Below, piece after piece: positions 13,810-20,318 of a stretch of 20,461 nt of DNA; the first letter of the stretch is position 1; each line of letters starts with the position of its first letter. The DNA comes from a virus. Below the pieces are notes generated by a model. It was not told the DNA's origin and did no database searches. It saw only the letters and a program-made list of their open reading frames with translations. Made by a program: the position numbers and the translations under genes. The stretch spans positions 1-20,461 of the IMG/VR virus record IMGVR_UViG_3300047666_000274, one strand, 5' to 3'.

Positions 13810-14306
13810 AAATAACCTCTCAGTCCAGGAAAATTGGTATAATCGAATATTATACCAGTAGACAAATTGTTAAAACTGCGTGCAGAGGCATCGAAGCTAG
13901 AACCTTTCTTGTTGAAACTAAACTTAGAAACTTCTAATTCAATTGGACCAAAAAGAGGAACAGCTAGATTATCTGATCTGTAAGTTCTGTATATTACTTT
14001 TGGCTTTTCTCCCCATGTACCAGCCGCACTGACTGCGTCTAGCTCTAATGGAATTATTTCACCTAAGTCTCCAAGAGAAATGTTTATTGATTGATCTAAA
14101 GTTCCAGAACTTCCAAGAGGAGTTATCTTCGCTGGGTAATATTCAAACACTTTGGAGACACTGTTTTCATCAATCACAGTTATTCCACCTATCGAATTTC
14201 TTACGAAACGATAAGTTTCAGTGAAAGAAGAATGACTTAGCTCAAAAGTCTCGAGCTGCACCACAGAACTTGCTGAAGATAAAAAGAATTCAGAGTAATC
14301 AGACAC
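13806..14306 (-). CDS. Minor tail protein, DUF1833-like
   Basis: A 166-residue, beta-rich protein with no TM segment or catalytic motif. It starts YSEFFLSSASSVVQLETFELSHSSF and ends FNNLSTGIIFDYTNFPGLRGYL. Its length, position just before NlpC/P60 and J, and N-terminal pattern fit the DUF1833 family of phage minor tail proteins. I am giving this from memory of the family, so the name is tentative. The GTG start (14304-14306) overlaps the previous gene by 8 bases and has a near-perfect AAGGAGG ribosome site 5 nt upstream, so it is probably well translated. A structural role at the tail tip, as lambda gpL, is likely. Confidence 0.65.
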   Translation of the reverse strand: MSDYSEFFLSSASSVVQLETFELSHSSFTETYRFVRNSIGGITVIDENSVSKVFEYYPAKITPLGSSGTLDQSINISLGDLGEIIPLELDAVSAAGTWGEKPKVIYRTYRSDNLAVPLFGPIELEVSKFSFNKKGSSFDASARSFNNLSTGIIFDYTNFPGLRGYL

Positions 14307-14766
14307 CTAGTCCTCCTTGAGTATTCACGCTAACTAGCTCTCCTAAAGAGAGTAACCACTCATCTATGCCAGCGAACTCTCCTAGACTATCTGCGATAGT
14401 AAATACAGAAGAATAGTCAACTGAAGGAACAGCAAGGATAGAAGCTTGGACAGTTCTTCTGAGACCAGTGGCATCTGTAAGCCTGACTGATCCAGGAACG
14501 AATTGAGCTTCGTATAGCTCAGCATCTCCTTGAATTGATATCAAGTTTACAGTAAAAGGAGAGCTCCCTTTAGAAATAGTAGTATGAAAAAATGTGGAGA
14601 ACTCTCTGTATTGGTCTAAAGTCATTACCCAAGTGACAGAGAACTCAGTCGGTTCAATTAACTGATCAGTTCTCAATCTAGGACTAATCCCATCGCTTGA
14701 TACAATTCCTGTTCCGAAAGTGACTCCGTAACCGTTAACGCTTGGTATGCGATCATAATGTTCCAT
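14299..14766 (-). CDS. Minor tail protein, paralogue 2 of a tandem pair
   Basis: A 155-residue protein whose first 112 residues repeat the gene just upstream: MEHYDxIP-V-GYG-TFGTG, QLIEPTEFSVTWVMT, then FVPGSVRLTDATGLRRTVQA. It has an extra C-terminal 40 residues (DYSSVFTIADSLGEFAGIDEW and on) missing from the first copy, beta/helix mixed and of unknown role. Located between tape measure and the hub, it is probably a tail-tip subunit. The gene starts two bases after the stop of paralogue 1, with no strong ribosome site, so it probably depends on coupling. Two blocks of its DNA are identical to the other copy. Confidence 0.7.
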   Translation of the reverse strand: MEHYDRIPSVNGYGVTFGTGIVSSDGISPRLRTDQLIEPTEFSVTWVMTLDQYREFSTFFHTTISKGSSPFTVNLISIQGDAELYEAQFVPGSVRLTDATGLRRTVQASILAVPSVDYSSVFTIADSLGEFAGIDEWLLSLGELVSVNTQGGLGV

Positions 14767-15019
14767 AATTAGGACACCACAGCAAGGATAGAAGCTTGGA
14801 CAGTTCTTCTGAGACCAGTGGCATCTGTAAGCCTGACTGATCCAGGAACGAATTGAGCGTTGTGTAGCTCAACATTACCTTCGACTGAAACCAAATTTAA
14901 GGTGAACGAAGAACTACCTTTAGAAATCTTTCTTTGAAAAAAGTAAGAAAACTCTATATACTGTGACACAGTCATAACCCAAGTGACAGAGAACTCAGTC
15001 GGTTCAATTAACTGATCAG
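14429..15019 (-). repeat. Duplicated gene segments with two blocks of exact DNA identity (offset 350 bp)
   Basis: Block A: 14429-14508 equals 14779-14858 over 80 of 80 bases. Block B: 14627-14669 equals 14977-15019 over 43 of 43. The 118 bases between the blocks keep register without gaps but differ at many sites. The blocks encode the FVPGSVRLTDATGLRRTVQASILAV end and the PTEFSVTWVM segment. Confidence 0.95.
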
Positions 15020-15122
15020 CTCTTAGTCTAGGAAGGCCACCGTCCGTATCTATTGACACTAGACCTGTTCCGAAGGTAGCTCCGTAGCCACTTACTTCTG
15101 GGATGAGATCGTAGTGTTCCAT
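14769..15122 (-). CDS. Minor tail protein, paralogue 1 of a tandem pair
   Basis: A 117-residue protein, the shorter copy of a tandem duplication. It aligns with its downstream neighbour along its full length, with short differences in the middle (VSQYIEFSYFFQRKISKGSSSFTLNLVSVEGNVELHNAQ). It is a beta-rich small domain placed right after the tape measure gene, where lambda has M and L, so a distal-tail or tip role is likely. The family name is not known to me. The start ATG overlaps the tape measure stop by one base (TAATG, 15120-15124). Confidence 0.72.
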   Translation of the reverse strand: MEHYDLIPEVSGYGATFGTGLVSIDTDGGLPRLRADQLIEPTEFSVTWVMTVSQYIEFSYFFQRKISKGSSSFTLNLVSVEGNVELHNAQFVPGSVRLTDATGLRRTVQASILAVVS

Positions 15123-18100
15123 TATCTTCTTCTTTCGGCAGTTGTGTTTTCGGAGAAAGCTGATGAGATTTGACTGTTAGAGTCAACTAGCTGACCAGCT
15201 ACAATTTCTGGAGTTCTCTCTGTTACTTTTTTCTCAGCTTCTTCTCCAGCTATAATCCTTATCTCACCTTCACTTATCTGCTCAACTTTAACATTTTGTC
15301 CTGTATAGTTATGAACAGATACTTTCATTCCACCGGAGGTCACATTTGGTTTATCGCTACTGGACCCAGAGGCGAAAGAAGGTAGAAGTCTGGATACATC
15401 CATACCTGAGTTTATAGCTTTTAGCAACGGAAGATTTTTAGAGGTTGCATCAGCGTTCACAACGAATTCTCTGTTAGAAAGCCAAGCTGGTATCTTATCT
15501 TCTTTCGGGCCTCCAGGTCCTGTGATTAATCCACCTTCTGCAAATCCTCCAGCAGCGGCAAGACCAGTGCTAAGAGCTACAGTTGAGGCGATTGCAGCAG
15601 CGGCGGGAGCAGCGTTTGTTCCCAGAGTCGCTAGAGAAGCTAGAGCAGCGGCAGGAGCCCAAGCAGCGGCAGTCGTGGCGGCAGTCGCTACAGAAGCAGC
15701 CGTTGCTGCGGCAGCAATTGTCTGCCCAAGAGCTGCGTTCAGCAATGCCTGAATCCCCATCTCTACTAATCCTGAGATCAATGAAGCCAGTGCATTCTGA
15801 GCCACACTTTTCAAAGCCTGACCGAGGTTCTCTGAGAAGACAATAGCTTTACCTACACTATCCGCGAATCCTGTTGTGAGGGAACCAAAGAAGTCAGAGA
15901 ATACTTCACCACTAGAAGCAGCAAATGTTCTCACTGCTTCTGTCATTTTTGATATACCCAAAAGGAAACCATCAGCGAAAGATCCATCTCCTGATTGTGT
16001 TACAGTTTCTAGGATAGTTTGATTCAAAGAGGCTAGAGAAACATTGAACGCATCTTGAGATATTCTTCCTGTATCAAGTACGAGATACAAAGCCTCTAGA
16101 CTTGTTGTGTAACTATCTAGTGGACCTTTGATTTCTTCGTATATGGAGGCAGACTCTTTCGCAACTTCAAGACTTCTCATAGTAGCAGAAGCTAAACTAA
16201 TCTCTTGTTCAGTCAAACTCCTTTTCAGTTCTTCTTCTATTTTCAAGATACCTTGAGCAATTTCTCTCTCTTGACTTGTTAATTTAAGAAGGTCGAGTTC
16301 TTTGTTCATTCCAGAGAGGATATTAGCAAAGTTTTTCTCTATTTCCCCGCCGCCTCCAGCATCTTTATCCGCAGCGTCTCTTCTCGCTCCAGCGAGTATA
16401 GTCTGATAGTTTCTTTCCGCTTCGGCTAGTTGATCAGTACTCGCTCCAGCAGCCATTAAAGCAGCTCTGTGAGTTTCATAGCCTTGAGTAGCTTGAGCTA
16501 AAGTTCTATCGAGACCTGTGAGACTAGCTAAATTAGCTTGGTTGCCATATCTGTCTACTTGATTGTTCAGCCTTTCTAAAGCGTTAGCAGCATCTTCAGC
16601 GTTATCCACAGCTACATCGTTTGTAAGTCTGCTGACTGTTGAGTTATACGCCGCTTCTGCTATGGCTAGATCTCCTAAGCTAGCTCCCGCACTGACCAAA
16701 GTAGATCTTAACGCTTCATATTTTTCAGTTTCCCGAGTTATGGCTTTATCTAAACCAGTTCTAGAGGCTACGTTTGCTTGAGAGACATATCTATCTAGTT
16801 CTGCGGTAGCATCACGAGTTGCTTCTGCTGAACCATCAATTTCACTAACAGCTTGGCGGTAAAGATCATTAAGATTAGCTTGACGATTTATTAGTTCATC
16901 AACTGAAATCCCATTGTTATTAAATTGAGAATCTAAATCAGCCATTCCAGATGCCAACTGAGCAGAAGCTTCTTGAAGACCTCCTGCTATCTTACTAGCA
17001 GCAAGCATAGATGGGATTTTACCAATGAAGAATTCTATCGCTCCAGCAGCGGCACCCGCAGAACTAGAGACAGCATCAAGACCTCCAGCCATTACTAGAA
17101 GAGCAGTCTCAGCTGCCGTTGCTGTTCCATTTAATTCTGCTATAACAGCATCTAAAATTTCAACTTGATCATTTGCTAAATCAACTGATTCTATAGAGTC
17201 TACTAATCCACGAACAAATTTTGTGAATCTAGTATTATCAACTTCTGAAGCAAGAGAAGCTATTCTATCACTAAATTGAAAAATATCTATGCTTCCAGCT
17301 TCTAACTCATCTCTAATAGTAACTAATTGATTTATGGCTCTACTAAAATCAAAATCTGCAGTTAGTATAGTTTTAGCATCAGTCCAAAGAGAGTTGTAAC
17401 CAATCAACTGATCAGAGACTGCTGCGAGGGCGTTTCTTTGGGCTTCCAGAGCTTCTACTCTTTGAAGTTGAAGTTGGGCTATAGAAATTCTGTCAAATGT
17501 GTCAGCTAGCTCAACCCCTTGATCTTTAGCATCAACCATCGCTGCTCCGACTTGTCTCATCAAATCAGAGGTTTTATCTACTACGACGTTGACTTCTGCA
17601 GAAGCGTCACGAAGATTTGAAAGAGCGAAAACCGCAGATGTAATTGCTATAGCGATAAGACCGATAGGACCCAAAGCTGCTATCAGCCCACCTATAGCTC
17701 TACCTAGACCAACAACCATTGCGGTTAAAGTTGGAAAAACCCTTGTAAGCGTTGCCGCAACAGTACCAGCCGCCGCTTGTGCCGCTGTTAGGCGCACGTT
17801 AGCCGCTGCCAATGCGTTGGTGGCCCCTGTTTGGGTTGTACGCACTGTGGCAAGCGTTCCAGTAAGTCCTATTTCTGCTTTTTCTACAATTGAAAGCTGT
17901 GCTGTCACTCTAGCAAGATTAGCTTTTGCTGCTGTCAGGTTAACGAACTGTCCAGTAGCCGCCGTCCGAGCTTTTCCGTTAGCTACTGTGAACTGAGTAT
18001 CTAGAACTGTCTGTTGAAGTTGAGTTTTTTGAACAGCTATGAGAGCCAAATTTTGACGAAGTTCTGTTTCTCTTAAAGCGATACCATATGTTCTAGGACC

Positions 18101-19063
18101 TATCCTACGGATCTCACTCGCTGCTCTCAATTGTTCAATTTCCAACATGCGAGTTGAAGCCACTGAGGCTGCTCTTATACCTACAATGTAAGCACTTATA
18201 GAGGCTAGAACTTTAGTCCCCAACATGCCCAAAAGAACAGCACCGACGACTCCAGCGACAACCGCTAATTCTGTGATATTGTCTGATATGAGTATTATAG
18301 ATTTAGCTACGTTCTCTGAAAGATTGACCGCATCATCTAAAGCATCTAAAAATTCAAGCCAGTTAGTCCCTGCAACAGACAATGCTTGACTGATAGTCGG
18401 AATCGTATTAGCGAACAGCGTGTCGATTTCTTTTTCAGCTTCACGGAATGCTTTGAGAATAGTCTCAGCTGAAATTTTACCTTCCTCACCAAGTATTCTC
18501 AACTCACCTCTAGTGACCCCAAGACTCTGAGAAATGATGTCGGCGACATACGGAAGTTGCTCAAGGACAGAACGAAGTTCGTCTCCTCTAAGAGTGTTGG
18601 AGGCCATACCCTGCCCAAGCTGAACAAGGGCAGCATGAGCTTCTCGGGCAGAAGCACCTGATATGATAGTTGCTTTACTGAGGCTTTCTGAAAATCTTAC
18701 AGTTTCAGCTTGAGAAATACCAAGCTCTCGCACAGAGAGTGCTGTTCTGCTATAAATTTCAGCGACAGCCTCAAAACCTGTACGGCTGTCTCGAGCTGTC
18801 TGAAACAGACGACGCTGAACTACATCTAGGTTAGATGCACTGGTTGCTGTCAAGCGAAGTCTGTTCTCGTATTCAGTTAGAGTATCAAGTTGACGTGTTA
18901 GTCCACGAAGGATCCCTGCTCCACCCAAGACAAACAGAGCACGTTGCATCAAGAAGATGCCGCGAGTAGCAGAGTTAGCCGCCAAGCCTATTTCATCGAT
19001 CCTGCGCTTGATTACTCTTGCGCCAGTTTCTCGAAATCTGATGTCTACATTTTCAGTAACCAT
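15122..19063 (-). CDS. Tail tape measure protein
   Basis: Sets tail length and fills the tail tube before DNA ejection. The 1313-residue protein has the tape-measure N-terminal domain: TEYENRLRLTATSASNLDVVQRRLFQTARDSRTGFEAVAEIYSRTA and GMASNTLRGDELRSVLEQLPYVADIISQ (about residues 65-185) are characteristic. Two hydrophobic parts follow, at about 258-300 and 443-490, then long helical and coiled parts, an 80-residue tandem repeat (from residue 756), a very Ala-rich segment (about 1105-1190), and the usual Gly-rich end with EGGLITGPGGPKEDKIPAWLSNREFVV. At 1.5 angstrom per residue, the length rule known for siphoviruses, the tail would be near 200 nm. The start overlaps the upstream stop (TAATG at 19061-19065). 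Confidence 0.96.
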   Translation of the reverse strand: MVTENVDIRFRETGARVIKRRIDEIGLAANSATRGIFLMQRALFVLGGAGILRGLTRQLDTLTEYENRLRLTATSASNLDVVQRRLFQTARDSRTGFEAVAEIYSRTALSVRELGISQAETVRFSESLSKATIISGASAREAHAALVQLGQGMASNTLRGDELRSVLEQLPYVADIISQSLGVTRGELRILGEEGKISAETILKAFREAEKEIDTLFANTIPTISQALSVAGTNWLEFLDALDDAVNLSENVAKSIILISDNITELAVVAGVVGAVLLGMLGTKVLASISAYIVGIRAASVASTRMLEIEQLRAASEIRRIGPRTYGIALRETELRQNLALIAVQKTQLQQTVLDTQFTVANGKARTAATGQFVNLTAAKANLARVTAQLSIVEKAEIGLTGTLATVRTTQTGATNALAAANVRLTAAQAAAGTVAATLTRVFPTLTAMVVGLGRAIGGLIAALGPIGLIAIAITSAVFALSNLRDASAEVNVVVDKTSDLMRQVGAAMVDAKDQGVELADTFDRISIAQLQLQRVEALEAQRNALAAVSDQLIGYNSLWTDAKTILTADFDFSRAINQLVTIRDELEAGSIDIFQFSDRIASLASEVDNTRFTKFVRGLVDSIESVDLANDQVEILDAVIAELNGTATAAETALLVMAGGLDAVSSSAGAAAGAIEFFIGKIPSMLAASKIAGGLQEASAQLASGMADLDSQFNNNGISVDELINRQANLNDLYRQAVSEIDGSAEATRDATAELDRYVSQANVASRTGLDKAITRETEKYEALRSTLVSAGASLGDLAIAEAAYNSTVSRLTNDVAVDNAEDAANALERLNNQVDRYGNQANLASLTGLDRTLAQATQGYETHRAALMAAGASTDQLAEAERNYQTILAGARRDAADKDAGGGGEIEKNFANILSGMNKELDLLKLTSQEREIAQGILKIEEELKRSLTEQEISLASATMRSLEVAKESASIYEEIKGPLDSYTTSLEALYLVLDTGRISQDAFNVSLASLNQTILETVTQSGDGSFADGFLLGISKMTEAVRTFAASSGEVFSDFFGSLTTGFADSVGKAIVFSENLGQALKSVAQNALASLISGLVEMGIQALLNAALGQTIAAAATAASVATAATTAAAWAPAAALASLATLGTNAAPAAAAIASTVALSTGLAAAGGFAEGGLITGPGGPKEDKIPAWLSNREFVVNADATSKNLPLLKAINSGMDVSRLLPSFASGSSSDKPNVTSGGMKVSVHNYTGQNVKVEQISEGEIRIIAGEEAEKKVTERTPEIVAGQLVDSNSQISSAFSENTTAERRR
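16380..16798 (-). repeat. 80-residue tandem repeat inside the tape measure
   Basis: Repeat 1 begins at 16798 (LDRYVSQANVASRTGLDKAI, residue 756) and repeat 2 at 16558 (VDRYGNQANLASLTGLDRTL, residue 836), an exact 240-bp spacing. Both continue with E/G-KYEALRSTLVSAGAS- and GYETHRAALMAAGAS-type sequence and an AEAAYNST/AERNYQTI stretch. This is a protein-level duplication, diverged at DNA level, of the kind that changes tail length. Confidence 0.8.
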
Positions 19064-19515
19064 TAGCGTTCAAACACCCTAAATCCAGCGAGTTCAGCTT
19101 TAGCTTCCAGTAGAGCAGTCTCAATGAAACCAGCAGGAGCTTGTTTAGATGAACCAGAGTTTAATTTCTCTATATAAGAAGCAGCGTTGCTGATATAAAT
19201 TGAAGTCTCTAAGCCTCTTGTAGAAGATCGTAACGAGTTTATGCGAGCTCGTCCAGCGTTGATAGCCGCAGAAGCATTTGCGTTCTCACCAATACCAAGG
19301 TTCTTTCCTGGAGCATAGGCACCGATCACAGCTCGAGTAGGTGCTCCGATACCAACACGCCAGTTAGAACGAGCGACACCTTTATCAGCAGGTGTGTTCC
19401 GAACAAGACTCTTCAGAGAACGCACCGCGACAGCTTTAACAACGCGAGAAGCGGAGTTCTCAACTTGAGAACCCCGCCGCCTGATGTTTCTAGAGAATTG
19501 AGCCAGAGTAGCCAT
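19063..19515 (-). CDS. HK97 gp10-like tail completion/minor tail protein
   Basis: A 150-residue protein with the gp10-like pattern: a basic helical N-terminus, TPADKGVARSNWRVGIGAPT (the TPVDTG-R-NW type motif, about 41-60), then a variable loop, ISNAASYIEKLNSGSSKQAPAGFIETAL (about 108-135; the NN-Y---LE-GSS-QAP-G motif of this family). Members join at the head-tail interface or complete the tail end, like lambda gpZ. Here it sits between the frameshift chaperone and the tape measure rather than ahead of the major tail protein, so its position differs from lambda. The ATG (19513-19515) is directly preceded by the TGA of the frameshifted chaperone ORF, and GGGAAG lies 9 nt upstream; its stop overlaps the tape measure start. 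Confidence 0.82.
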   Translation of the reverse strand: MATLAQFSRNIRRRGSQVENSASRVVKAVAVRSLKSLVRNTPADKGVARSNWRVGIGAPTRAVIGAYAPGKNLGIGENANASAAINAGRARINSLRSSTRGLETSIYISNAASYIEKLNSGSSKQAPAGFIETALLEAKAELAGFRVFER

Positions 19516-20264
19516 TCACGTTTTCTTCCCAATTTGCTTAAGATAAGCTAAGTCCATATCTTTCAAATGTATGTGCATCGCCCCTATCTGTTCTTCGTCA
19601 CACCCACTTTTTTCGCAGTACTCTTGAATCGTTGTCCACCATATTGGTCCAGCGCTCATACCCATTTGTCTAGAGGCGATAAGATCATGAAACCCTATAT
19701 AGTATAACTCAAGGCCAGGAAGAAGACTAGGGGCGTTGGCTATCTTTTCTGGTAGATCCCAACCCGCCCTAGTGCATTGCTCAATAATCGCTTGTTCAGA
19801 AGGTCCCTGTGTTAATTGATAACACAGGAACTCTACGAGTTTTTTGTATCATTCTCCAACTCTGCCTTGCGGTAGTTGGCAAGAGAAGCAGCTTGTTCTT
19901 GAATATCCGTGAACATTCGTGGAAGAGCTGACAGAGCTTGTTCAACGTTAGCAGAGTTGAAAGGAAGGATCTTCCCGTCTGGGCCTTCAATACCAGATTT
20001 CATCTCTTTACCCTGCATAGTTTCCCAAGCGAGAATAACGGTCTTGGCGTAGATGTCAGCCATGAGTGCTTGAGAACGATCGTTGCTCAGAGCTCCAGAT
20101 TCAAGAGCGCGGCGAACAGGCTTGAGCTTCTTCTCAGCGTACTTGACATAATTCTTGTTACCCTGCCCAGCAGAGGCAAGAAGAACACGGAAATCCCCGT
20201 AATCAATCCAAACGCCTTTAGATTCAAGTTCCGGATCGGTCTCAAAAGTGTCGTACATTCCCAT
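19516..20264 (-). CDS. Frameshifted tail assembly chaperone, gpGT-like fusion
   Basis: Product of a -1 ribosomal slip at 19839-19845. The 0-frame chaperone is read to its last Lys, then reading shifts and runs through 107 more codons (19839 down to 19519) before TGA at 19516-19518, giving about 249 residues. The extension has no start codon near its beginning; the same frame is closed by a TGA just upstream of the slippery site. It contains SRQMGMSAGPIWWTTIQEY (about extension residues 57-74), a pattern seen in T-domains of tail assembly chaperones, which recruit tail tube subunits to the tape measure while the G part coats the tape measure. The low-abundance fusion and the abundant short form must be made in a set ratio. 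Confidence 0.85.
19803..19845 (-). promoter_or_regulatory. Programmed -1 frameshift signal
   Basis: Minus strand: slippery heptamer A AAA AAC (19839-19845) in the correct 0-frame phase (ACA AAA AAC TCG TAG), a 7-nt spacer (19832-19838) containing the 0-frame TAG, then an 11-bp stem GTTCCTGTGTT (19821-19831) / AACACAGGGAC (19803-19813) with one G-U pair and a 7-nt loop. All three elements have standard sequence and spacing. Confidence 0.92.
19833..20264 (-). CDS. Tail assembly chaperone, gpG-like short form
   Basis: A 143-residue soluble protein that binds the tape measure during tail assembly and is absent from the finished virion. It starts MGMYDTFETDPELESKGVWIDYGDFRV, a pattern found in many phage genes before the tape measure, and has a helical second half (KPVRRALESGALSNDRSQALMADIYAKTVILAW). 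The start is ATG 20262-20264 with AAGGA 9 nt upstream; a longer frame to 20303 lacks a ribosome site. The last codons AAA AAC TCG TAG include the slippery site. Identification rests on position, the frameshift signal and general sequence pattern together. Confidence 0.88.
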   Translation of the reverse strand: MGMYDTFETDPELESKGVWIDYGDFRVLLASAGQGNKNYVKYAEKKLKPVRRALESGALSNDRSQALMADIYAKTVILAWETMQGKEMKSGIEGPDGKILPFNSANVEQALSALPRMFTDIQEQAASLANYRKAELENDTKNS

Positions 20265-20289: not shown

Positions 20290-20318
20290 GAGGATGCCTC
20301 CATCGCGAAGACACCCTC
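20290..20318 (-). other. Weak hairpin in the gap before the chaperone gene
   Basis: GAGGATG (20290-20296) can pair with CACCCTC (20312-20318), seven pairs including one G-U on the minus-strand RNA, with a 15-nt loop. No T-run follows. It lies in the 63-base gap between the partial upstream gene and the chaperone and may set the ratio of their expression, or be incidental. Confidence 0.3.

Follow-up and report, generated by a model that had tools for sequence, protein, structure and literature searches.

The 20,461-base viral contig analysed in this study, to which we refer in its full length as the window, carries on its minus strand two overlapping reading frames, G and T, that are almost certainly connected by a programmed −1 ribosomal frameshift of the lambda G/GT type, which would provide two tail-assembly chaperones from a single start codon. 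The basis of this reading is the signal itself, the universal conservation of its slippery heptamer, the selection acting on the adjoining hairpin and the membership of both protein halves in chaperone families. That ribosomes slip at this place, how often they do so and which tasks G and GT fulfil is inferred.

The genes concerned, all encoded on the minus strand, are arranged as expected for a G/GT locus, with overlapping frames, a tape measure gene downstream and one neck gene in between. G (19833..20264, minus strand) encodes a tail assembly chaperone of 143 residues starting at the ATG at 20264, which is preceded by GAAGGAAAATATAAG, while an alternative in-frame ATG at 20303 is located within a hairpin. 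An open −1 frame extends over 19848-19516, and its 107 codons, counted from the CTC at 19839, constitute T (19516..19839, minus strand), which would be reached by the frameshift and whose TGA (19518-19516) directly adjoins the ATG at 19515. The latter opens the gene of a neck or tail-completion protein (19063..19515, minus strand; phrog_169), which is followed by the gene of the tape measure protein (TMP_3; 15122..19063, minus strand; PF20155, 2.3e-54) and, further downstream, by those of minor tail proteins and a large tail protein (phrog_469). The gene upstream of G is cut by the end of the contig; relatives encode a tail tube or major structural protein at this place. A fusion initiated at ATG 20264 would combine 142 residues of G with the 107 residues of T to a product of 249 residues. 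A preliminary description of this DNA had correctly given the length of this fusion and the extent of the open −1 frame up to the next ATG, and it had portrayed T as an unannotated frame that lacks a start codon and would be missed by gene calling. Since the first ATG, GTG or TTG of the T frame is found only at codon 59, a standard gene caller would indeed miss most of T, but a start codon is present, an ATG, and although T is unannotated in this contig, relatives often contain an annotated truncated version such as gp79 of phage LKO4. Side observations in the same region include a hairpin (GAGGGTGTCTTCGCGATGGAGGCATCCTC; 20318-20290, minus strand) without a subsequent T run between the end of the upstream gene and G, with LKO4 showing an annotated stem_loop in the matching position between its structural gene and G, and a 12-13 bp hairpin (GGCGGGGTTCTCAAGTTGAGAACTCCGCT; 19478-19450, minus strand) inside the neck-protein gene near its start. 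Two virion protein genes (14299-14766 and 14769-15122, minus strand; phrog_384) are adjacent tandem duplicates of 76% identity, one of which is shorter at its C-terminus.

Both halves of the predicted fusion belong to families of tail chaperones. G matches phrog_313 ('tail assembly chaperone', 1e-24), and a Pfam profile search retrieved nothing for this protein. In case of T, the profile search that had been proposed earlier identified PF23812 (Phage_TAC_18; 66.3 bits, E 2.7e-18, with a curated cut-off of 27) and phrog_3817 ('tail chaperonin'; 96.6 bits, 1.1e-27). The tail assembly chaperone family phrog_8233 spans both proteins, with G aligning to positions 4-139 and T to positions 141-249, a sign that the two halves have been entered for relatives as a single joined protein. 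In a tblastn search of phage records, G was found in 272 and T in 265 entries, all below 60% identity and mostly from phages of Pseudomonas, Vibrio, Achromobacter and other proteobacteria. An AlphaFold2 model of T is mostly helical (mean pLDDT 89), and a comparison with solved structures, on the basis of both sequence and fold, revealed no convincing counterpart of either G or T.

The putative site of slippage is the heptamer A_AAA_AAC (19839..19845, minus strand), which is in phase in G, where the 0-frame reads ACA AAA AAC TCG TAG. Together with the downstream stem-loop it forms the sequence 5'-GAG AAT GAT ACA AAA AAC TCG TAG A-GTTCCTGTGTTA-TCAAT-TAACACAGGGAC-3', in which heptamer and stem are separated by a spacer of 7 nt; heptamer and spacer agree with the preliminary description. 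The TAG terminating G (19833..19835, minus strand) is placed within this spacer, one codon (TCG) past AAC. In the main genes of the window, any heptamer of the type X_XXA_AAN or X_XXT_TTN occurs at 13 of 5,699 in-frame positions and AAAAAAC at one. An SD-like GGAG (19854..19857, minus strand) located 8 nt upstream of the heptamer might possibly act as an additional stimulator: its duplex with the anti-SD amounts to −6.4 kcal/mol and 58 of 89 representative relatives contain GGAG, GAGG or AGGA within 18 nt upstream of their heptamer, with the z-score of this element in the family against a synonymous null reaching just −0.31 ± 0.09.

In the mechanism that we propose, most ribosomes would translate G as far as TAG 19835-19833 and release the protein of 143 residues. 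With AAA occupying the P site and AAC the A site, the hairpin located 7 nt downstream would slow the ribosome, and in a minority of cases tRNA-Lys and tRNA-Asn would slip in tandem by −1, leading to the 249-residue GT as minor product with the junction ...NDTKN-LVEFL.... According to the general view, the second codon is properly decoded before the shift takes place (PMC4066793), and because tRNA-Asn would thus have decoded AAC before the slip, the junction residue is expected to be mainly Asn (DTKN-LVEFL) instead of the second Lys in the originally suggested DTK-K-LVEFL, which would require slippage prior to the decoding of AAC. By analogy to lambda gpG and gpGT, whose mechanism has been summarised with a product ratio of 30:1 (PMC5009743), many copies of G and few of GT may coat the tape measure protein, with the T domain recruiting tail-tube subunits. 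In E. coli, which may not be the host of this phage, A_AAA_AAC is far less slippery than A_AAA_AAG (PMC5009743).

The conservation of the slip site was investigated in 171 junctions, 131 of them distinct, gathered by scanning viral contigs three times and genomes once, the latter yielding just two contigs of one MAG, together with 13 phage records, and with the register of each junction set by protein homology alone. An in-register heptamer is present in all 131 distinct junctions, as AAAAAAC in 80 cases, GGGAAAC in 50 and GGGAAAT in one, and its register is identical throughout except for three junctions where GGGAAAC is found one codon upstream. The third base of the preceding codon always equals X of the heptamer; its encoded residue varies between A, S, G, T, L, V and E. 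The stop codon of G follows directly after the heptamer or one codon later in 116 of the 131 junctions. AAAAAAG and GGGAAAG, which are stronger slip sites in E. coli (PMC5009743; PMC4066793), were found in none of them, and their lack would fit the need for a low level of shifting. Intermediates between the AAA and GGG triplets, which are three base changes apart, are equally absent among the 131 sequences. On a maximum-likelihood tree of 89 representatives, the heptamer switches 24 times between A-type and G-type, with at least 15 of these events forced by well-supported branches, although recombination across the junction and errors in a tree of short proteins could lower the true number. 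The A-type is more common at loci of lower GC content (0.529 vs 0.573, p 0.002, in a statistic that ignores relatedness).

This conservation bears on the possibility that T would instead be a separate gene, unjoined to G and started within the −1 frame by translational coupling or at a non-ATG codon. Such a gene would be consistent with the overlap of the stop codon of G with the start of T, with a CTG at codon 5 of T and with the frequent annotation of a truncated separate T, as in LKO4 (gp79) and Halfdan. It would, however, leave unexplained why homology already begins at the first residue of T and the match to Phage_TAC_18 at residue 24, whereas the first ATG is found at codon 59, and re-initiation does not require a heptamer, yet this is maintained in 131 of 131 junctions. 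Rhodobacter phage RcRudolph is moreover annotated as a joined gene, which we count in support of a frameshift. A separate T consequently appears very improbable, and the programmed frameshift of the G/GT type, already put forward in the preliminary description, is supported by the chaperone families of both halves, the same −1 junction in all homologues and the join in RcRudolph.

The putative stimulator of this frameshift is a stem-loop (19803..19831, minus strand) with arms at 19831-19820 and 19814-19803 and a loop of 5 nt, whose stem contains 12 bp including one G.U at the given 7-nt spacer, and not 11 bp as initially counted. The 41 nt past the heptamer fold with −18.5 kcal/mol (z −5.8), a value reached by none of 200 dinucleotide shuffles. 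Since the coding strand of the window contains roughly eight stems of at least 11 bp, it is the coincidence of heptamer and stem, and above all its conservation, that is decisive. As the hairpin resides in coding sequence, we employed a null model in which the protein is kept and synonymous codons are redrawn from the usage of the locus itself. Under this null, the 16 codons that follow the slip site show a mean z of −1.95 in the 89 representatives, with 47% below −2 and the window at −5.04, while segments covering most of the remaining T, serving as internal control, average about 0. Among 14 close relatives, 82.7% of the cells of the window's stem are paired and the stem shows a covariation score of 0.172 compared to 0.083 after shuffling (0 of 500 as high), with slid versions performing clearly worse. 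When the exact register of the window is imposed on all 89 sequences, 688 of 1,068 cells are paired, compared to 641 ± 8 with arms exchanged between sequences. The synonymous null, the covariation and the excess of pairing together argue for a hairpin under selection, located within the range of 5-8 nt past the heptamer. In some clades this hairpin is weak or found in a different register, and a strong proximal hairpin is missing in many relatives (such as the loci L097 and L114), so that it is not universal. Its strength shows no link to the type of heptamer (z −1.99 vs −1.90, p 0.60). The stem, which had been singled out as worth noting, is thus real and selected, but it is less special than assumed, as hairpins are common in the family and one has been predicted for Burkholderia phage KL1 (PMC3483164). 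A search of the window against Rfam gave no match. A role of the hairpin as terminator was considered and rejected, as no terminator-like site is found there, the sole one of the region being located elsewhere and scoring at chance level.

The selected hairpin 7 nt downstream fits slippage of the ribosome and in this way also speaks against a −1 product arising from transcriptional slippage, where RNA polymerase would slip on the A run, as it can on such runs, to generate mRNAs of altered length. About 40% of the homologues carry GGGAAAC, where no run exceeds three bases and which is interchangeable with the A-type along the tree, making this explanation exceedingly unlikely. The same degree of improbability applies to an artefact, by which one gene would have been split in two through a sequencing error or indel within the six-A run, a classic site of such errors and formerly named as a potential refutation. 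Seven further contigs, closely related and drawn from several metagenomes, show this junction as well, and isolate genomes with GGGAAAC in place of a homopolymer have their two frames in an identical −1 relation, so that, judged from these homologues, a sequencing error can be regarded as excluded.

Besides the proximal hairpin, the predicted frameshift region of many relatives contains a second structured place around codons 18-33 of T, where the mean z of the 89 representatives is −1.57 under the synonymous null and 52% are below −2. The underlying hairpin, located approximately +54 to +102 nt past the slip site within the T frame, is carried by YuA, M39, the loci L002, L004 and L025-L043, the group of L077, L109 and L126, and others, and it is absent in the sub-clade of the window (window, L018 and L022-L024; z +0.4 to +1.2). 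Its distance from the slip site is too large for a classical stimulator, and no anticorrelation was detected between the two hairpins (rho −0.09). It is conceivable, if on balance somewhat doubtful, that the family uses a two-state signal, in which the slip triplet flips between AAA and GGG next to a nearly fixed AAAC with intermediates being strongly selected against, and in which the second hairpin, present in many relatives and lost in the sub-clade of the window, would help to set the ratio of G to GT.

When compared to known systems, the window resembles lambda gpG/gpGT in that its predicted −1 slip would take place at a heptamer of the X_XXA_AAN type, with the tape measure gene following downstream, and in a T domain ending in the −1 frame. 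The slip site of lambda is G_GGA_AAG, and neither a stimulatory hairpin at its G/GT junction nor a gene between GT and the tape measure is known. The dnaX and IS911 cassettes of E. coli share with the window the succession of a slippery heptamer and a hairpin at a distance of 5-8 nt, in unrelated genes, and their SD-like element, which in a dnaX-like cassette would be expected about 8-14 nt upstream, has a weakly supported candidate counterpart in the GGAG of the window. Closer relationships are found in the Yuaviruses YuA and LKO4 and in the related Septimatrevirus, Lokivirus and Nipunavirus, which contain homologous G and T proteins (with about 40-50% identity in T) and a heptamer in the same register. 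In contrast to the window, YuA and LKO4 use GGGAAAC and their G ends 13 codons later, with YuA combining a weak proximal fold with the second hairpin in T. RcRudolph (OP009285) also encodes a homologous T, deposited as a joined frameshift CDS, but with GGGAAAC and a different downstream fold; among the deposited relatives that we examined it is the only one with a joined T. In NC_010116, KX129925, MH362766, NC_041934 and others, T is either missed or annotated as a truncated separate gene, and many phage records thus carry this half truncated or missing.

The closest published description concerns KL1, where a frameshift between gp18 and gp19 with GGGAAAC and a stem-loop was predicted in 2012 (PMC3483164). 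As described, its heptamer is found just before the stop of gp18 with the predicted stem-loop downstream, as in the window, an extra tail gene is similarly positioned between GT and the tape measure, and the products of 142 residues and, for the −1 fusion, 264 residues compare to 143 and 249 residues in the window (PMC3483164), the heptamer of KL1 being of the G-type and that of the window of the A-type. In light of the KL1 prediction and the joined deposit of RcRudolph, a frameshift of this kind was already known. In the freely readable literature, the strict two-state heptamer that switches repeatedly, the covariation of the hairpin and the presence of a second one appear to be undescribed so far, and a search of this literature brought up no paper dealing with covariation in the frameshift signal. 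With 131 divergent junctions that share one register, use either of two interchangeable heptamers and vary in their hairpins, these phages offer a large natural data set on which it could be tested what rules govern −1 frameshifting in bacteria and whether the ratio of G to GT has to be fixed.
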